Positions 9,639-27,891 of a stretch of DNA of 28,173 bases are shown here, piece by piece (position 1 is the first letter of the stretch; every line of letters starts with the position of its first letter). Origin of the DNA: a virus; the IMG/VR virus record IMGVR_UViG_3300014827_000017, positions 1-28,173 of that record; one strand, given 5' to 3'. A program made the translations under genes and the position numbers. The notes below the pieces were generated by a model. It was not told where the DNA came from and did no database searches. It saw nothing but the letters and a program-made list of their open reading frames with translations.

Positions 9639-9881
9639 TCATTCCGACCTTTTGTTAATCGCGAACAACACCACGACAGCAGCCGCCGATGCGCCTGCAA
9701 AGCCAGTTACAGAGCCCGGGATTTCAAGGAGCTTTGAAGCCAAGCCCGAAAGCCAGAACCACAGCAGACCCGGTAGAATAATCGTGACAAACACGACCGA
9801 TAAAAACGCGAGACGAGATGAGGAAACGTTGCCGGTTCCGTCGTCGATTGCTGAACGTAGCCAATCTGGGATGAGTTTCAT
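9639..9881 (-). CDS. Holin-like membrane protein
   Basis: This 80-residue protein starts MKLIPDWLRSAIDDGTGNVS, then has two membrane segments: AFLSVVFVTIILPGLLWFWL and a second around VTGFAGASAAAVVVLFAIN, ending with a short charged tail (NKRSE). The DDGTG-SSSRL motif before the first helix is frequent in small phage holin-type proteins. Holins form the membrane lesion that lets the endolysin reach peptidoglycan. No endolysin gene is visible nearby, so the call rests on size, topology and the adjacent lipoprotein gene. It is the first minus-strand gene after the plus-strand cargo island. Confidence 0.6.
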   Translation of the reverse strand: MKLIPDWLRSAIDDGTGNVSSSRLAFLSVVFVTIILPGLLWFWLSGLASKLLEIPGSVTGFAGASAAAVVVLFAINKRSE

Positions 9882-9945
9882 AAATTCTTTATTGGTTTGC
9901 GTAGTCTAGGGAGTTGGCACTACCTTGCCGCGTCTCTTCCCCCAC
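9882..9945. other. Divergent intergenic region between holin-like and cargo genes
   Basis: This gap of 64 nt separates two divergently transcribed units. It is AT-richer near the holin start. I see no pair of -35 and -10 boxes that I would call a promoter, though both directions should have one here. Confidence 0.4.
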
Positions 9946-10563
9946 ATGAAATCTCCCCTGTTTGCTTGCTTGTTCGCCGGGCTGTGCGCCTCGGCTTCGG
10001 CTTCCGGCTTCGACTGCTCGATACTCAGCCACATCACCTTCGATCAGCCGTGGCGCGACCTTGATAACTGGTACGCCTATATCGACACGGCGGGAGACGG
10101 CGCATACTCCGTGAGCACGTTCGACTCTCAGGGGTACAGCGGAACGCGGTGGGGGCAGCGAACGATACTGAGCGGGACGGCGGGCGATGGCGTGAACGCA
10201 GGAAGCGCCAGTGGCTCCGTAGAAATCTACACGATCTTCTGGTTTGATTTTGGCATCGAGGGAGGAGCCCTGAGCTTCACGCATCAACGGCTGGCTAACT
10301 ACGCCTATGCTTTGGGAAATGCAGACGGCATGGCGTTCGATTCGATTCTGTTCGATGGTGTCGAGACCAACCGAACGAGCTTCGACGGCCTGCAATTCTG
10401 GCATTCCGTGCAGCTCACGACGCGCGTTGAGGGGTGGGCGGTTGAGAATAACGAGGCCAGCCATGTGCCGGACGGCGGATCGACCGTTGGGCTGCTTTTG
10501 ATTGCGTTGTCTGGATTCGCGATTCATAGGGTTTTATGCCTAGTTCAGAATGTTCAGTTCTAA
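9946..10563 (+). CDS. Secreted protein with VPDSG-CTERM-like sorting signal (cargo gene 1)
   Basis: The ATG at 9946 begins a signal peptide (MKSPLFACLFAGLCASASAS). An in-frame TTG at 9925 is a poorer start. The mature part of about 155 residues is rich in Ser, Gly, Asp and aromatic residues, with no domain I recognise. The C-terminus has HVPDGGSTVGLLLIALSGF followed by AIHR, matching the VPDSG-CTERM plan: a Pro-Asp-containing motif, then a membrane helix. It differs at the end, with only one Arg and ten more residues (VLCLVQNVQF), so sorting could be impaired. Exosortase recognises such tails and links proteins to the cell surface. It is on the plus strand, opposite to its phage neighbours, and 11 nt upstream of a second such gene. 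Confidence 0.7.
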   Translation: MKSPLFACLFAGLCASASASGFDCSILSHITFDQPWRDLDNWYAYIDTAGDGAYSVSTFDSQGYSGTRWGQRTILSGTAGDGVNAGSASGSVEIYTIFWFDFGIEGGALSFTHQRLANYAYALGNADGMAFDSILFDGVETNRTSFDGLQFWHSVQLTTRVEGWAVENNEASHVPDGGSTVGLLLIALSGFAIHRVLCLVQNVQF

Positions 10564-10574
10564 CCCCTGTAAAA

Positions 10575-11120
10575 ATGAAAATCAGAAATATAGTCGCGGG
10601 CCTCGGCCTGCTCGCTTCGGTGTTCGCGTGTTCGACCGCTTCGGCCCTTACTATGTGGCAGTCGCAAACAAGCACGATTGACCAGACCGCGTATATAACG
10701 GCTGTTTATGGAGCATTTGCCACCGACGATCTGAACTCGAACGGGGTAATTACCGCCGATGAAATATCGCAGCACGCTGACGTTCCTTACGGGGCAACGT
10801 TTGCGGGCGTCCGGATTTCGGGCGTAGGCGGCGCACCCGTCGAACTCACATGGGGCAATTTTCAATTGGTTCATGCGGTTTACAATTGGCGTTATGCAGT
10901 CGGCGACTTCACCGGCATTTTTGCGGGAGGTAGCATTGAGTGGTCGGGGGATGCCAGCGGAGGGCTGCTAACCGTAACCGCTGGCGGAAACGACCCAGTA
11001 GCATACGCCACAACCGGCTTTCTGATGCAGCCCATGCCCGACGCCGGGCAAACGGCGGGACTTATCGCCTTCGCTCTTGTGGGGCTCGGCTTGATACGTC
11101 GAAGGCTTTCGACGGCGTAA
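10575..11120 (+). CDS. Secreted protein with EF-hand-like loop and PEP-CTERM-type tail (cargo gene 2)
   Basis: The ATG at 10575 starts a signal peptide (MKIRNIVAGLGLLASVFACS, then TASA). The 181-residue protein contains a calcium-binding-like loop at residues 52-63, DDLNSNGVITADE, with D, N, N, G, I and E in the EF-hand positions. The tail has MPDAGQTAGLIAFALVGLGL followed by IRRRLSTA: a PDxG motif, a membrane helix and an arginine cluster, the arrangement of exosortase (VPDSG/PEP-CTERM) substrates. It lies 11 nt after cargo gene 1, so they probably form one operon, and a plus-strand terminator follows. The mature region does not match a family I know. An in-frame ATG at 10536 overlaps the previous gene and would spoil the signal peptide. 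Confidence 0.75.
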   Translation: MKIRNIVAGLGLLASVFACSTASALTMWQSQTSTIDQTAYITAVYGAFATDDLNSNGVITADEISQHADVPYGATFAGVRISGVGGAPVELTWGNFQLVHAVYNWRYAVGDFTGIFAGGSIEWSGDASGGLLTVTAGGNDPVAYATTGFLMQPMPDAGQTAGLIAFALVGLGLIRRRLSTA

Positions 11121-11145
11121 CCTGAGAGGAAGAACTCTTGATTCC

Positions 11146-11180
11146 AAAACCGCCCTACTCGTAACCGAGTGGGGCTTTTC
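11146..11180 (+). terminator. Terminator of the plus-strand cargo operon
   Basis: CCCTACTCG pairs with CGAGTGGGG (9 bp with one G-U) around a short loop TAAC, followed by CTTTTCG. It lies about 30 nt after the stop of cargo gene 2. Confidence 0.8.
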
Positions 11181-11211: not shown

Positions 11212-13347
11212 TCAGTTGAAAAACAGAGCCCCGCGACGCAACCGTGCATGGACGGGTGTGCTTGGGGGCGCCTGAGTTGTCGCGCTGGCGTTTGCCGTGT
11301 AGCTGGAGTTTCCGAAGCTATTCACGGCGCGCACACGGTAATAGTACGTCGTCGAAGCCGACAGACTGGTGTCAGTGTAGGCCGTCGCGTTACTGGCTGT
11401 CGTGAAGATCAACGTCCAGCCCGTCGATCCGTCTAAGCTGCGCTCAATCTCGAACCCGGTTTCATCGGAGGACGTGTCAACCCACGTTAAATCAATAGAC
11501 GATGTGGTGAAAGACGGAGCCGCGAGCGTGTTCGGTGCGGTCGGGGCAGAGCCGGTGCCCGGTGAATAGGCATAGGCCCCAATGTCCCAGCTTGTGCGCG
11601 TTGCTCCAGTGATGTCGGTCGTGAAGTAAGCGGATAGGTCTTGCCCGGCACCAATAAGTGGTGATCCAGCGGTCGGTCGGGCATCCCACGTTGAGGGGTT
11701 CCCCGAGGTACTGACTAATGCTGGATCAGCCCACAGGCTATTCAGGTCCACGCCGCGTTTAGTTTGCCAAGCCGCGAGGGTATTATATGTGGTGTCGTAA
11801 ATTGCCCGAGCTGCATTACCTCCGTAGAACAAGTTATTGTCTGACGTGAAGTCGGTTATCTGATCGGCTTGAATAGTAACAACCACGTCAGCGAAGTTTC
11901 TAAAAAACGCATTGTTCCTAATATCAACCAATTGGTGCTGATTAACATTAGACTCTACCCCTAAACCACGGTTTGATCCTACGAAAGTATTATTCCATAT
12001 TCGGACAACAGAAGCCATCCCGGGCGAGGCAAAACCCACGTCAATATACTCCGAATTGTGGTCGTCCAGAAAAAGACAGTTGTATATGTCCACGCTTGGA
12101 CCTTGGCTGACATAAATTGATGCCGTTCCTCCATTGCTGGTCTGGTCGGAATAAAATTTCGAGTTACGAATGACGATATTATCCCACGTCGAGACGAGTC
12201 CCGTCGTCCTTAGAAAAATCCCGTCTTGGTGAGGCTTTTCCCCAAACCCCTGCCAATTAGGGCTATCAAACTCTTTGTAATCATGGAACGTGCAACCGTC
12301 AATTAATATGTTCCTAAACGTAGCTCCCGTAGTGTGGACCGCGATGTCGATTAACCAATGTACATAGTTGTGAAACGTGCATCCTAAAACCGATATGTCG
12401 GATATTGTTGCAGACGACTTAATTCCTACTGGATTAGCCATGCGTGTAAAATCACAGCCAGAAATGGTAATCCCAGTGTTGTTTTCCAGGGCAACCCCAC
12501 TACCTGTAACGCTATTCCCGCCATCCATAGGAATTATGGGCTGCCACTGCCCAATTTCAGAAAATGTACAGTTGCTAATCGTGACGTTTGACCCACCTGA
12601 CGCTAAATAGACTCCACCTCCACCCGGTGGAGTTATAACCGGTCTCCAGCCATAAACTGTACCTGTACCGGCAGCCGTAAGGTCGAACTGAGAGCCCCCG
12701 CTTAGGGTTGAAATAGTAAACTCTGTCGGAGAAATAACCGACTGGACATAGTACGGTTTTGCGCTTGTTCCAGAGCCGACTTCACGAGTCAAAGGGGTTG
12801 GAAAAGTCCCACCGCCGACGGTGAATTTCACGGTGTTTCCGACAGACAGCCCGTGCGCCGTTGCGGTCGCAAAGCTGTTGGCCGTTATGTCGATTGTGCA
12901 CGCTTGTCCCGATGCCCAAATTGGGTCTGTTTCGGCATACCCACCGATATTGTAGTATGCAAAACCAGTGATAACAACATTGCTCTTTGCCGCGCCTCCG
13001 TCGGTGAACGCATTTGCGACAACGTTGTTTGACGTTATTACTGCCCTTGTACCCGCCCCCCACGTACTTCCGTCATAGGTAATAGGACTTGCGGCGCTTC
13101 CGCTGGAAAGTGTGAGCCCGGCCGAACCTACAACATAAGAAACGTCGTTCTTAAATTGTACTGTATCACCAGCTAAAAATGTCGTAGATGAAGCGAGACC
13201 TGTGGCTAGCGGGTCGCCATGACAGTGTTTCCAGGGCGTGGAGGTCGTAGTTCCGTTTGCGGAATCAGAACCGGTCGCGTAATCGACGTAGTATGTAGAT
13301 GCCGAAACGGTCGCGAACGACAATAGGAATATAATTATGGCGCGCAT
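11212..13347 (-). CDS. Right-handed beta-helix tail appendage with signal peptide and fibronectin type III domain
   Basis: I chose the ATG at 13347, which leaves a 1-nt gap after the upstream stop and gives 711 residues. The start is a signal peptide (MRAIIIFLLSFATVSAS), followed by TYYVDYATGSDSANGTTTST, the 'YYV...GsDs.nGts..PW' start of many right-handed beta-helix, polysaccharide-lyase-like proteins. The next roughly 550 residues have repeated beta rungs (VTISNCTFSEIG, ITISGCDFTRM, ISVLGCTFHNY, ILIDGCTFHDY, IVIRNSKFY, VDIYNCLF, VRIWNNTFVG, VDIRNNAFF). A fibronectin type III domain follows (about residues 600-695). It probably binds or degrades host surface polysaccharide. The middle of the gene is clearly more AT-rich than its neighbours, which suggests recent transfer. 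A Sec signal on a tail protein is odd. Confidence 0.75.
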   Translation of the reverse strand: MRAIIIFLLSFATVSASTYYVDYATGSDSANGTTTSTPWKHCHGDPLATGLASSTTFLAGDTVQFKNDVSYVVGSAGLTLSSGSAASPITYDGSTWGAGTRAVITSNNVVANAFTDGGAAKSNVVITGFAYYNIGGYAETDPIWASGQACTIDITANSFATATAHGLSVGNTVKFTVGGGTFPTPLTREVGSGTSAKPYYVQSVISPTEFTISTLSGGSQFDLTAAGTGTVYGWRPVITPPGGGGVYLASGGSNVTISNCTFSEIGQWQPIIPMDGGNSVTGSGVALENNTGITISGCDFTRMANPVGIKSSATISDISVLGCTFHNYVHWLIDIAVHTTGATFRNILIDGCTFHDYKEFDSPNWQGFGEKPHQDGIFLRTTGLVSTWDNIVIRNSKFYSDQTSNGGTASIYVSQGPSVDIYNCLFLDDHNSEYIDVGFASPGMASVVRIWNNTFVGSNRGLGVESNVNQHQLVDIRNNAFFRNFADVVVTIQADQITDFTSDNNLFYGGNAARAIYDTTYNTLAAWQTKRGVDLNSLWADPALVSTSGNPSTWDARPTAGSPLIGAGQDLSAYFTTDITGATRTSWDIGAYAYSPGTGSAPTAPNTLAAPSFTTSSIDLTWVDTSSDETGFEIERSLDGSTGWTLIFTTASNATAYTDTSLSASTTYYYRVRAVNSFGNSSYTANASATTQAPPSTPVHARLRRGALFFN

Positions 13348-13348
13348 T

Positions 13349-15433
13349 TTAATAGAGCAGGTAGTACGCATTAACGTTATTCCGAAGCGTTGCTTCATCA
13401 GCGCCTAGGGTCGTAAGCGAAGCGTTGAACCAAATGTCCTCGCTTACGTCTGCCAGCGGACTAAGCGTCGCACTCCCCAATCGTAATTCTGACGGGGCGT
13501 TATCTCCCGCTGTTCCAACAGTGGGGCTACCTGCGTTCACCTGAAGACTGTCATTTATTCCGGTCTCAAAATATGCGGTAACAACATATTGCGATCCTAT
13601 GGAGTATGCCGTCGTGTTAGTGAGGTTTGCCCCAGACGAGATTAAGAAGGTGTTTCCAGTGTTTTGCTTGAGACCTGTCCGAATTGCACCACCTCCGCTC
13701 ACAATCGAATCCAATGCGGTCGTTGAGTTGTTGGTCACGACCGCAAAGACAGTAATAGGAAGCGTTGGAGAGAGGGCCGCTGTAACAATCGTATCGTCTG
13801 TTCCGTCCAAACTGACTTTCGCGTGACCGTGCGCGTCCACAATCACCGTGCCCGCTGAGACGATCTTAGGCTGTGCAGTTGTGGTTGCTTGCGTTTGGTT
13901 TCTTCCATTTGTGGTTTGATCATACCGCGTCACGACAAAGCCGTCCGTTCCAGCGCAGAAAGCAGCAAGTGCAGTCGTGTCTAAGTCTTCACCTGAAAAT
14001 CCGATGTCCTGTTCGGTGTTATCGCTCGCGCGCCGAACACGAATAGCTGAACCAGCATAGGCCGCGCGCAACTTGCGAAGACTATATGCCGCGTAAGCCG
14101 AGGTAGAGATTGCATCTAGCGCGTAAGTGGACGCGGATATTGTGTAAGCAGCCGATGCAACCGCGCTGTCTTCGTAATACGGCGGGCCATCAATATACCC
14201 CGTCGCCTGCACGGTCTGAGTCGTGCTGACGGTGATCGCTGAGGTGTAGTCAGACCCAGCCGAACGCGACGGAGTCGTCACACCATCGACCGAATATTTC
14301 TGTCCCGTCGCCGTGCCGTAGTCGATAGTCACAGTCTGCGCCGACGAGTAGGTGCCTGCGGGAGGGGAGAACGTGGGCGTCGGTACCGTGCCAGCTCCAA
14401 CAATCGTCGGGGTCACGCCGCCGCCGAGTCCAGTGACAGTCGGCGTCCCGTTCGTGCCATCCGCAGCTAACCAATTCGTCGGCAGATTGCCGAGGTCCGC
14501 CGTGACCCACCATCCGCCCGTTCCTACCGGGACTGATCCTGCGACTACGCCGGCAATCTGAGTGTCAACATAAGCGGTGCTCGCTTTGGTATCTAATGCC
14601 GACTGAGTTGCGGTCGAAACAGGAAGTGATCCAGCCGTGACCTTCTTCTTCGCATTCAATGCCGCCGCATCTTCGATCACCAGTAGATCGCTCGTCGTTG
14701 GTGTCGTCTTGCTGGCAATACCGCTGATTTCGCCAGAGGCGTTGACGTGTATCGCATTGGTGTCAGTGCCGCCACCGCCACCCGCGCCTAGCTGCTGTAA
14801 TGCCGCTTCGACGTTGTCGGTCGTGAAATAGCTGCCTGCATCGACGATGGGTAAGTCTGCTCCGGTTACAACCGTGTCGTCCAAGAACAGCGTTGAGCCG
14901 GCGTCTGGCGTCCAAACGCGAAACGTGTGATTCCCGACCGGGACGGCGATCGTCGTTGCGCCAAGGGCCGTCGTGCTGCCGTTGCGATAGACCGTGCCGC
15001 CTGCGGCAGAGATCGTGAGCGTGACCGGGACTGTTGCGCTAACCTGGACGACGCCGCCTCGGCCTGCGGTGTAGGCGCTATTCGCGATCGTCAGTGTCTT
15101 AGGGCTGCTGCTCCATGTCACAGGGTTGATCGGCCATGGAGCTGATCCAAGCGTGAGCGTGTCGCTGACAAGCAAGCTAACGGTGAGCGCGGGCGCCGCG
15201 CCGACGTCTGACAGCGTTACCGACACGTCTCCGCTGAGTGCGTGGCCGTTGACTGTGCGCGAGGTTGGCACACTGGCAGCCGCCGCCGCATTCGCCTTCG
15301 TGGTTGCGTCGGAAGCCGCGGTCGAGATCGCGTCGGCCTTCGCCGTGTCCACATAAGCAGTTGTCGCCGTTTTCTGAACCGTCTGACCAAAGAGCGGTAG
15401 CGCCAGCGTGAGAAAAACAAGGATACGTTTCAT
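13349..15433 (-). CDS. Tail fibre protein with signal peptide, chitobiase-type and arabinofuranosidase-like domains
   Basis: The ATG at 15433 gives MKRILVFLTLALPLFGQTVQ, a signal peptide-like start; an ATG at 15448 adds five residues. Next come an Ala-rich helical part, the tail-fibre phrase SRTVNGHALSGDVSVTLSDV (GAA follows), and a second TAYVDTQIAG repeat. A chitobiase C-terminal-type repeat follows (TFSPPAGTYSSAQTVTIDYG, PSRSAGSDYTSAITV), then a C-terminal region with AAYSLRKLRAAYAGSAIRVR, GFVVTRYDQTTNGRNQTQAT and KVSLDGTDD. I recognise this last part as the arabinofuranosidase B/concanavalin-like domain common in phage fibres and baseplates. It is followed 1 nt later by the beta-helix gene. 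Likely role: receptor or polysaccharide binding. Confidence 0.72.
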   Translation of the reverse strand: MKRILVFLTLALPLFGQTVQKTATTAYVDTAKADAISTAASDATTKANAAAAASVPTSRTVNGHALSGDVSVTLSDVGAAPALTVSLLVSDTLTLGSAPWPINPVTWSSSPKTLTIANSAYTAGRGGVVQVSATVPVTLTISAAGGTVYRNGSTTALGATTIAVPVGNHTFRVWTPDAGSTLFLDDTVVTGADLPIVDAGSYFTTDNVEAALQQLGAGGGGGTDTNAIHVNASGEISGIASKTTPTTSDLLVIEDAAALNAKKKVTAGSLPVSTATQSALDTKASTAYVDTQIAGVVAGSVPVGTGGWWVTADLGNLPTNWLAADGTNGTPTVTGLGGGVTPTIVGAGTVPTPTFSPPAGTYSSAQTVTIDYGTATGQKYSVDGVTTPSRSAGSDYTSAITVSTTQTVQATGYIDGPPYYEDSAVASAAYTISASTYALDAISTSAYAAYSLRKLRAAYAGSAIRVRRASDNTEQDIGFSGEDLDTTALAAFCAGTDGFVVTRYDQTTNGRNQTQATTTAQPKIVSAGTVIVDAHGHAKVSLDGTDDTIVTAALSPTLPITVFAVVTNNSTTALDSIVSGGGAIRTGLKQNTGNTFLISSGANLTNTTAYSIGSQYVVTAYFETGINDSLQVNAGSPTVGTAGDNAPSELRLGSATLSPLADVSEDIWFNASLTTLGADEATLRNNVNAYYLLY

Positions 15434-15437
15434 AGGG

Positions 15438-16295
15438 TTACATTCCAAAATTTACGGGGTAGGTTGAGCGGAGCGGATTCCACTTGGTCCCGTCGTGATA
15501 TAGCTCGAACAGCGCGTCATCGCCCGACGCGTCGGTTTCGATCGAGTAAAGCGTGTCGCCGGTCGTGTTCTTAATCGTGATGATTACTCCAGCCGTCGCA
15601 GGGAGGCGGAACATCAATTCGAGTTTGTTTGCCGCCGCGCGCGTCGCCGATGTTTCATCATCGACCGTCAACAGAGCAGCCCCAGCCGCGAGTGAGACGG
15701 TGACGATTTCAAGATGCCGGTGGGCATTCGCATCTGCGATTACGGTCGCGTCTCCAGCCGCCCACGTCTGCACGTGGAATCCGTCGGGAACACTTCCAGC
15801 TGTAACTACGCCGACCGGAGTGCCATCGCTCGCCATGTTCACTTCGCAGAGCAGCTTGAACGGCTGCTGCGCGAACGTGTAGCGGGTCACGACGCCGGTT
15901 CCATCGGACGATGAAATTTCGACCTCGAAAAAAACAGTGATGTAGCGGTCGGACGAAACAGGAATGGAGTCCACCAGCGCCAGTATTTCGGTTGTGTTCA
16001 GGTTCAGCCGCGTCGTCGCAACGTCGGCCACGAGCGTGTACGCACCGGATACCGCCAGCAGAGCGCCATCGCTGGTGTACCGTCGCAAACCAACCCGCAT
16101 CTCCGTTCCCGCCGGCAGAACGCTCCCCGTCACCTTTGTCGGGGTCGATCCCGTGGCCCCGGCGGTGAACACGATTTCGAGATCCATGATGTCCCCCGCA
16201 TACAACTGCGCCATGAGGTTTGCTGGCACGGCGCCGTCGCCGAACGAGCGCGTGAGCACAGCTGTTGGGATGTCGATGGTGAAACGTGGGAGCAT
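15438..16295 (-). CDS. Tail appendage/baseplate upper protein-like
   Basis: The 285-residue protein starts MLPRFTIDIPTAVLTRSFGD. It is beta-rich, with GTEMRVGLRRYTSDGALLAV and RYITVFFEVEISSSDG, and a C-terminal part with ANAHRHLEIVTVSLAAGAAL and LFELYHDGTKWNPLRSTYPV. The first half resembles the baseplate upper-protein or fibre-anchor type that precedes phage fibre genes; the last segment looks like a sheet used for docking or oligomerisation. Unlike the next two genes it has no signal peptide. Its stop is 4 nt before the fibre ATG, so all three appendage genes likely form an operon. Confidence 0.6.
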   Translation of the reverse strand: MLPRFTIDIPTAVLTRSFGDGAVPANLMAQLYAGDIMDLEIVFTAGATGSTPTKVTGSVLPAGTEMRVGLRRYTSDGALLAVSGAYTLVADVATTRLNLNTTEILALVDSIPVSSDRYITVFFEVEISSSDGTGVVTRYTFAQQPFKLLCEVNMASDGTPVGVVTAGSVPDGFHVQTWAAGDATVIADANAHRHLEIVTVSLAAGAALLTVDDETSATRAAANKLELMFRLPATAGVIITIKNTTGDTLYSIETDASGDDALFELYHDGTKWNPLRSTYPVNFGM

Positions 16296-25836: not shown

Positions 25837-27891
25837 TCACGCCATGAGCAGCACGTCATCATTCGACGCCATTTCCCACAACACCGTCACCGCGTCCACT
25901 TGGTCATCGTGCGTGCAGTTCGGGAACTGGCGGAGTTCGTCGAGGAAATCCTGATTCCACAGCCCCTCGACGATAAACAAATTGTCGGCCGCGATCGTCG
26001 CCAGCCACGGCAGAGCACGCGTCTGCTTGTCCGCCGCCGGACGGTAGTCCTGCACGATCGCACGGCCAACCAGCGTTTCACGCAACTCCTGCGCTGCCAC
26101 TTCCCAGCCTCTCACCGCCTCGATGCCAACACGTCCAACATTGTCCACGTTCACCGCGTAGTTCGTAATGGTCTTCTTTTGGTCGGGCCACGCGCGTTTG
26201 TCCCGGTCGATGTGAACGATGTAGAGCTGCCTGAGCTCGACTTCTTCGCCGTTGTCCAGCTTGCGTTTCACCGTCCGAACACCGCCGTACACACCCACCG
26301 AGTAATCGGCCGCGGTCTTGATACTGATCGCCAAATCCCATCCGCGCATCAGCTCCATGTCCGCCGGCACTTCGCTGCGCTTGATCTTCCGGACCCTGTT
26401 CACGTCGCACAAATTGCCGTCCGGTGGGTTCGGCCGCTGCTGGTACTGCGCATTCCACTCGAATGGTCCAACGATCAGCCGGCGTGCCTGTAGCTTGCCA
26501 ACCGTCCAACGCTCCGGCCACAACGCCTCACCGGCCTTGCGGTGCATCGGGTCGGTCTCCGGGTTCTCGCAGATTGCCTCCATGTTCACGAGCTCGAACA
26601 CCTCTTCAGGGAAACCCGCATCCTCCAGCTCCTTCACGCGCTTCGGATCTTTCAGCCGGCCGATCAAATCGTCTTCGTGCCAACGCGTCTGGATCACGAT
26701 CACCACGCCGTCAGGGCTCAGACGGTTGACCACCGTGCCAGTGAACCAATTCCACACCTCGTCGCGCCGCGCCTGACTGTTCGCCTCTGCGCGATTCTTG
26801 ATCGGGTCGTCGATTATGAAGCAATTATGAGTGAGGATTCCATTAGCGAAGAAGTTCTCAGTTCCTTCAACCTGAAGATTGAACACATCGGTGTCGCGGT
26901 ATATTCGCTCAACCATGGCCACAGAATCACTGACCGTTTGGATTTCTGAGCAGCATGGAATTGCGTGTGACATTTCAGACAGAGCGTCACGAGGTTCGTT
27001 GGTCTGTGATCCGTCGGATCTAGATTGTTCGAGCAGTAGAATTCCATTAGCCCTCGCTTCAGATGCTTGTGCATCTCGTGCGGTTTTCTTGTCATCGGTT
27101 TTCGGCATCGCGAGCACGAGACGATCACCGGGGGCAAGTTCCATCGCCCGCGTGTATTCTTTTCCCGTGAAGAAAGGATGCTCTCCCGTAGCCTCAACCA
27201 CTCGTCCAGAGGCAGTGCTAATTCTATAGATGGTCGCAGCTCGTCGAAAAGCAGTTGCTCTAACACGCCTCCAACACAGTCCTTCGGGTTCATGACTATA
27301 TGATAACACATAAACGTCGCGTTGCGATATGTTTATATCCGAAATTGGGATGTTACCCTCGCTCGTTGTAATGAGCGTATCTGGTGTTAAACAATCTGCG
27401 CCTCTTCCGACACCGCCACCGCCGACGCCGGTCGCGAAGTACGCGCCGCCGTGAACCGTGCGCCAGAGCTTCGTCGTGTCGTGCGTTACGTCGATGACCT
27501 GCTCAGGAAAGAATCGCCGGCACCGTGCGCTGTTGAGCACGGCCTTGGTCTGGATCGAAAACTCTTCCGAGAGCTCAGCCGTGTAGCCGGCCTGGATGAT
27601 TTCAAGCGCCATCTTCCGCGCGGCGGATTTGATATGTGCCCACGCAGGGAACATGACCGAAGTCGTGCGCGACTTGCCGTGACGCGGAGGAAACGAAATC
27701 GCCAGCCGCTTGATCTTTCCCGTGTAGCAGTCTTCCAGCTTCCGGCTCAGCAGCTCGTGACACGCGCCCGCGCGATACTTCGGATCGACCAATTCGGAGA
27801 ATGCCGCCAGCGAATTGAGCGCCCCGTCCTTTAGCAGAAACTCCTGCTCACGCTGGAGCGTCTGCGGGTCGGTTGCGCTGGATACGCTCAT
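25837..27891 (-). CDS. terL: Terminase large subunit, interrupted by an intein
   Basis: The 684-residue frame is an ATPase-nuclease terminase once the intein (residues 167-356) is removed, leaving 494 residues. The ATPase part has the Walker A-like FPPRHGKS at 67-74. The Walker B CFIIDDP at 357-363 starts exactly after the intein. The coupling motif is VIQTRWHEDDL at 399-409. The RNase H-like nuclease part has RGWDLAIS (D519), VGIEAVRGW (E591) and CTHDDQVDA near 659-667, the usual acidic residues. It drives ATP-dependent DNA packaging at the portal and cuts concatemers. The ATG at 27891 lies inside the end of the small terminase gene (44-nt overlap). Activity needs protein splicing, because the intein splits the Walker B region. 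Confidence 0.92.
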   Translation of the reverse strand: MSVSSATDPQTLQREQEFLLKDGALNSLAAFSELVDPKYRAGACHELLSRKLEDCYTGKIKRLAISFPPRHGKSRTTSVMFPAWAHIKSAARKMALEIIQAGYTAELSEEFSIQTKAVLNSARCRRFFPEQVIDVTHDTTKLWRTVHGGAYFATGVGGGGVGRGADCLTPDTLITTSEGNIPISDINISQRDVYVLSYSHEPEGLCWRRVRATAFRRAATIYRISTASGRVVEATGEHPFFTGKEYTRAMELAPGDRLVLAMPKTDDKKTARDAQASEARANGILLLEQSRSDGSQTNEPRDALSEMSHAIPCCSEIQTVSDSVAMVERIYRDTDVFNLQVEGTENFFANGILTHNCFIIDDPIKNRAEANSQARRDEVWNWFTGTVVNRLSPDGVVIVIQTRWHEDDLIGRLKDPKRVKELEDAGFPEEVFELVNMEAICENPETDPMHRKAGEALWPERWTVGKLQARRLIVGPFEWNAQYQQRPNPPDGNLCDVNRVRKIKRSEVPADMELMRGWDLAISIKTAADYSVGVYGGVRTVKRKLDNGEEVELRQLYIVHIDRDKRAWPDQKKTITNYAVNVDNVGRVGIEAVRGWEVAAQELRETLVGRAIVQDYRPAADKQTRALPWLATIAADNLFIVEGLWNQDFLDELRQFPNCTHDDQVDAVTVLWEMASNDDVLLMA
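26814..27311 (-). CDS. HNH-endonuclease-like ORF, +1 frame, nested in the intein
   Basis: In the +1 frame relative to the terminase, a 165-codon ORF (ATG at 27311) contains CSRC (Cys66, Cys69), EFYCSNNLDP, then TDHRPTNLVTLCLKCHTQFH. DH..x..NL..LC..CH is the HNH pattern (D101-H102, N106, H115), and the CxxC pairs (66/69 and 111/114) could bind zinc. The core (27116-26955) lies exactly between the two halves of the intein's Hint domain, where homing endonucleases normally sit, but out of frame. The ORF ends just past the splice junction. The DH-to-N loop is short, and NNL stands where HHL is common, so the catalytic His may be altered. It could be an overprinted gene or the remnant of two compensating frameshifts. 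No ribosome binding site is seen at 27311, so expression is unproven. Confidence 0.45.
   Translation of the reverse strand: MCYHIVMNPKDCVGGVLEQLLFDELRPSIELALPLDEWLRLRESILSSREKNTRGRWNLPPVIVSCSRCRKPMTRKPHEMHKHLKRGLMEFYCSNNLDPTDHRPTNLVTLCLKCHTQFHAAQKSKRSVILWPWLSEYTATPMCSIFRLKELRTSSLMESSLIIAS
26824..27393 (-). mobile_element. Intein in the large terminase, inserted at the Walker B motif
   Basis: In the terminase frame, 190 residues between GVGRGAD and CFIIDDP look like an intein. They start with Cys (CLTPDTLITTSEG, block A), contain VVEATGEHPFFTG (block B, TxxH), PGDRLVLA (end of the N-part), and VFNLQVEGTENFFANGILTH then Asn (block F/G). They are followed by Cys as the +1 residue. First Cys, TxxH, His-Asn end and Cys+1 are all present, so splicing should work. 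The His usual in block F (as in 'THNFF') is Glu here. No LAGLIDADG or HNH is in frame; the linker of about 65 residues between the halves is low-complexity-like, while the +1 frame of the same DNA encodes an HNH pattern. Confidence 0.88.

Follow-up and report, generated by a model that had tools for sequence, protein, structure and literature searches.

Why would a phage place genes for secreted, apparently surface-sorted proteins in the middle of its structural genes? The question is raised by a stretch of viral DNA of 28,173 nucleotides (the window), where the minus strand carries almost every gene, whereas ORF1 (9946-10563; 205 aa) and ORF2 (10575-11120; 181 aa), separated by a gap of 11 nt, are encoded on the plus strand. 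On one side they adjoin a small two-helix, holin-like gene (9639-9881, minus strand; 80 aa), for which profile searches including Pfam and PHROG gave no family match. On the other side lies a tail-fibre-type gene (11212-13398, minus strand) in which profile searches recognize a beta-helix and fibronectin-III (fn3) domains. A sequence-only reading of this DNA had located the two genes between these neighbours, which the confirmed positions bear out, and had interpreted them as a lysogenic-conversion unit of exosortase-sorted surface proteins. Tails that are processed by exosortases anchor proteins to the cell surface or matrix, mostly in Verrucomicrobiota, Planctomycetota and related groups. 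Among them, VPDSG-CTERM proteins are chromosomally encoded in Verrucomicrobiota and paired with a dedicated exosortase.

The genomic origin of the two genes has to be settled before their role is considered. The window is contained, with 99.99% identity over almost its full length, in a viral contig of 84,461 bp (G001). The ends of this 84.4-kb contig overlap by 98 bp, the junction is crossed unbroken by a second contig with a different sample number, and a response-regulator gene (receiver and LuxR-type HTH; end of L013 to start of L009) is intact across the circle junction. Encoded on the contig are an integrase of the tyrosine type (PHROG integrase, E 2e-19) and also a terminase, a portal, a head protease and tail genes. 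Since the contig is circular and has an integrase gene, ORF1 and ORF2 are phage genes, and the unit lies, judging from the assembled sequence, in the interior of a complete and probably temperate phage genome. A host flank, a prophage edge or a misassembly, the last two of which the sequence-only reading had named as possible sources of the genes, is rejected as far as the assembly allows, given the containment in G001, the end overlap and the junction-crossing contig.

The same phage DNA holds several other features. A lone plus-strand gene beside the tape-measure gene (390-866) encodes, according to its sequence, a putative lipoprotein of 158 aa with the lipobox LAGC; profile searches gave no family match for it, and it is a possible second accessory envelope gene. 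The gene for the large terminase subunit (25837-27891, minus strand) is split by an intein (PF14890), which is overlapped in another frame by a 165-aa ORF (26814-27311, minus strand) that looks HNH-like by eye (CxxC, NLxxLCxxCH) and has no Pfam match. A stretch of a tail-region protein (13349-15448, minus strand) matches the catalytic domain of alpha-L-arabinofuranosidase B (PF09206, E 1e-9), and one phage genome has two distinct genes for the beta clamp of DNA polymerase III (L012:11011-12522 and L012:17354-18457; minus strand).

ORF1 carries the clearest sorting signal. It begins with an apparent signal peptide, read by eye (MKSPLFACLFAGLCASASAS; 9946-10005, plus strand), and its C-terminus (VPDGGSTVGLLLIALSGFAIHR) comprises a VPDGG tail (VPDGGSTVGLLLIALSGFAI; 10465-10524, plus strand) that exceeds both curated VPDSG-CTERM cut-offs. 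The tail scores 26.7-29.5 bits, with 26.7 bits for TIGR03778 (NCBIfam; cut-off 22 bits) and 28.5 bits for PF18205 (Pfam; cut-off 25 bits). The profile search that had been suggested as a check thus did return a sorting signal, for ORF1. As in VPDSG-CTERM proteins in general, a signal-peptide-like start is followed by a variable middle and a C-terminal PDxG motif with a hydrophobic helix. The basic cluster that should close the tail is weak, however, consisting of HR followed by the hydrophobic VLCLVQNVQF, and the profile alignment stops at position 20 of its 24; processing could therefore be poor.

A related viral contig of 12.8 kb (G002) contains a homologue of ORF1 with 70% identity, the same neighbours on either side (the holin-like gene being 100% identical) and the same sorting tag, which is likewise over the cut-offs (24.2 bits for TIGR03778 and 26.5 bits for PF18205). 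The two sequences differ at 45, 47 and 103 first, second and third codon positions, respectively, and the dN/dS ratio is ~0.11, an approximate value as dS is near saturation. From this sequence comparison, ORF1 is a real gene under purifying selection. An antisense ORF (9889-10527) was rejected as the true gene, its dN/dS being ~1.05 compared to ~0.11 for ORF1. Conservation is strongest at the start, where the signal peptide is identical and 57 of 60 nt in its coding region are the same, versus ~39 per 60 nt in the body of the gene; the last residues are wholly different between the two phages.

ORF2 shows the same layout. Its N-terminus resembles a signal peptide (MKIRNIVAGLGLLASVFACSTASA; 10575-10646, plus strand; read by eye, with a helix at residues 3-33 in a low-confidence model), so that signal-peptide-like N-termini are clear by eye in both proteins, as had been claimed. 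Its C-terminus (MPDAGQTAGLIAFALVGLGLIRRRLSTA) contains a sorting-signal-like tail of the form MPDAG-helix-RRR (11037-11105, plus strand). Motif, helix and RRR are all present, but the scores of 14.2 bits for TIGR03778 (<22) and 18.5 bits for PF18205 (<25) remain under the cut-offs. The claim of PDxG sorting tails in both proteins holds above the curated thresholds for ORF1 and in layout only for ORF2. With an E-value of 5e-4, the ORF2 tail is nonetheless the sole match at E ≤ 1, besides ORF1, in a six-frame search of the 84-kb genome, and its C-terminal helix (residues 157-180) belongs to the segments that the model predicts with the greatest confidence. An EF-hand-like loop had also been noticed. 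This loop is indeed there (DLNSNGVITADE; 10728-10763, plus strand; read from the sequence), although only as the 12-residue pattern, as Pfam gave no EF-hand profile match at E ≤ 0.1; it is resembled in one of 21 PEP-CTERM proteins from viral contigs that are described below. No relative of ORF2 was found; its frame is the best-scoring of six and free of stops (~0.001 by chance). As ORF2 is missing from G002, it constitutes a variable part of the unit, and what speaks for it as a gene is the stop-free frame with its coding score, the signal-peptide-like start and the tail.

These observations bear on two other explanations. One is that both are passenger genes, acquired from the host and drifting without a role. 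It would fit a relative that lacks ORF2 and the complete divergence of the ORF1 end residues; for ORF1, though not for ORF2, it conflicts with the low dN/dS and with the conserved leader and signal peptide, and we regard it as distinctly unlikely. The other is that the proteins are membrane-anchored in the envelope with a PDxG motif that no exosortase processes. The sub-threshold score of ORF2 and the weak basic cluster of ORF1 would be expected then, but the two tails independently resemble one model and the ORF1 homologue passes as well (24.2 bits), which makes this account very unlikely.

VPDSG-CTERM matches over the cut-off were absent from 14 control genomes and from 40 related records, of which 39 are related through the portal and one through the holin, and no PEP-CTERM (TIGR02595) match was found in the window, in G001 or in G002. 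Homology searches yielded no homologues of ORF1 or ORF2 in isolate phages, no PHROG match and no match in PDB sequence searches, and for ORF1 none in plasmids or GTDB genomes, where the GTDB scan, consisting of two short patterns, is a weak negative. The predicted structures of the two ORFs are of low confidence (pLDDT 37 and 45) and allowed no fold assignment. A tblastn search of phages with the tail only gave nothing, and the same query was blank on plasmids too, which marks it as insensitive; a strict VPDSG DNA pattern likewise had no match in viral contigs, and would also miss both known positives.

Downstream of the two genes, a hairpin search and folding identify a rho-independent terminator (11152-11175, plus strand; stem of 10 bp, loop of 4 nt, followed by TTTT; fold z -2.9), in agreement with the sequence-only reading. 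Upstream, the candidate leader or promoter region that separates ORF1 from the divergently oriented 80-aa gene (9882-9945, plus strand) shares 58 of 64 nt with G002. It includes a sigma-54-like element, TGGCAC-N4-TTGC, at 9915-9928 (one pattern match versus 0.09 expected), which is conserved but has a spacing one base shorter than usual and is for that reason not claimed as a promoter. A sequence scan revealed no sigma-70 promoter at ORF1. With its own terminator, the unit is oriented independently of the flanking operons.

This arrangement is informative for two further alternatives, which assign the proteins to the lytic cycle or to the virion. As lytic-cycle envelope proteins, they would aid lysis or virion release, and the C-terminal helix would be a plain membrane anchor. 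Their position next to the small two-helix holin-like gene, fully conserved in G002, suits such a function, yet they lie on the strand opposite to that gene and the late genes and are followed by a terminator of their own, and the tail is matched by a curated sorting model that finds nothing over its cut-off in control genomes. We give this explanation a small chance of being right. As virion components (e.g., receptor-binding accessories), with signal sequences that merely arose by chance, they would be appropriately placed beside the tail fibre gene. Against this, a signal peptide and C-terminal helix would remove the proteins from the cytoplasm, where virions are assembled, the strand is the wrong one and no PHROG match exists; this role is highly improbable.

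Temperate-phage morons offer a parallel. Known examples of morons and lysogenic conversion include Lom and Bor of phage lambda and serotype-converting glycosyltransferases. Like such genes, ORF1 and ORF2 are isolated on the opposite strand among structural genes, have a terminator and likely affect the host envelope. Unlike known morons, their surface delivery would depend on a sorting tag for a host exosortase. They also differ from described VPDSG-CTERM proteins in being phage-encoded, with one tail (ORF2) under the cut-off and the other (ORF1) weak at its basic end.

Relatives of the phage provide additional context. A 95-kb relative (G004; integrase 65% and portal 62% identical) has only five of 114 genes on the minor strand: the integrase, a LamG/PEP-CTERM protein and a UmuD/SRAP/UmuC group. 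The exosortase-type protein combines a LamG-type lectin domain with a PEP-CTERM tail over the cut-off, and G004 is the only one of 18 records searched with a PEP-CTERM match. Its gene (L064:19196-19912, plus strand) is located directly upstream of UmuD, SRAP and UmuC (L065:47-2370, plus strand) and is possibly SOS-linked. In a 90-kb relative (G005; portal 44% identical), the sole minor-strand gene (L067:17711-18337, minus strand) encodes a fucosyltransferase-like glycosyltransferase of family 11 (GT11). In a provirus-like record (G043; integrase 50% identical), neither a VPDSG nor a PEP-CTERM match occurs. Eight phage records were searched for an exosortase gene and none contains one, so a host enzyme would be needed. 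A host search with the portal protein returned only distant matches, in one Ignavibacteria MAG and one Clostridia MAG.

Taken together, we consider it fairly probable that ORF1 and ORF2 are an accessory (moron) unit of a temperate phage of ~84 kb that uses the host exosortase to alter the surface of the infected cell. The signal peptides would direct both proteins across the inner membrane and the C-terminal helix would retain them there, after which the host exosortase would cut them at the PDxG motif. The infected cell would then display the cut proteins on its outer surface or hold them in its extracellular matrix. Most likely, surface properties of the lysogen would change, be it adhesion, the matrix or the masking of phage receptors; blocking of other phages, which the sequence-only reading had put forward, is one option. 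From this layout we infer that a host exosortase processes the proteins, that the prophage expresses them and that they affect the surface. The lysogenic-conversion interpretation gains from the temperate type of the phage (circular, with an integrase), from the lone minor-strand unit with its terminator, from an ORF1 tail over the threshold and from the few minor-strand genes of G004 and G005, which include surface-type ones. It loses from ORF2, under the cut-off and absent in a related phage, from the weak basic cluster of ORF1 and from the negative sigma-70 scan at ORF1.

Is such cargo confined to this phage? A strict DNA form of VPEP[ST]TxALL was used to survey viral contigs and occurred in 33 stretches. 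Filtering by tail length (short) and by a signal-peptide-like beginning left 21 proteins (~16 distinct ones without near-identical copies), nearly all of which match PEP-CTERM models, as expected given their selection. In the three contexts that were checked, genes for phage replication, an anti-repressor, DNA ejection or the tail are nearby. The survey is lower-grade evidence, as some records may still contain host DNA. Five of the viral contigs (L089:5273-5614, L090, L104, L105 and L117) encode an Asp-rich PEP-CTERM protein of 114-117 aa; four copies are identical (one being truncated where its stretch ends) and one is 91% identical, and in the four contigs with context a glycosyltransferase-like gene is close by. 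Another PEP-CTERM protein (L097:516-1319, plus strand) is found on a 245-kb viral contig, possibly a very large phage.

The window unit shares its tripartite layout with the PEP-CTERM/exosortase system, true members of which are encoded by G004 and other viral contigs, but the window itself lacks a PEP-CTERM match and the phages tested lack an exosortase. We tentatively suggest, with more doubt than conviction, that temperate phages of several unrelated lineages generally rely on the exosortase pathway of the host for surface display of phage-coded proteins. It is equally tentative that this route, e.g., by masking receptors or changing matrix or attachment, is an undescribed mode of surface conversion. 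In the open-licence full text searched, no report of phage cargo delivered via a host exosortase tag was found and the term VPDSG-CTERM was absent; the consulted papers mentioning both PEP-CTERM and phage contained no description of phage-encoded PEP-CTERM proteins. The earlier statement that no phage cargo of this type is described is in line with this literature, with the qualification that other uncultivated viral contigs do carry PEP-CTERM proteins. PMC12642866 cites work in which floc formation needs PEP-CTERM proteins together with exopolysaccharide, which makes a matrix role plausible.

Exosortase systems sort many surface proteins of environmental bacteria, few of which have a known function. 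If phages carry such proteins as cargo, the sorting tag would make it easy to search collections of viral sequences for more of it, and lysogeny can rewrite cell surfaces in bacterial groups for which there is almost no phage biology.
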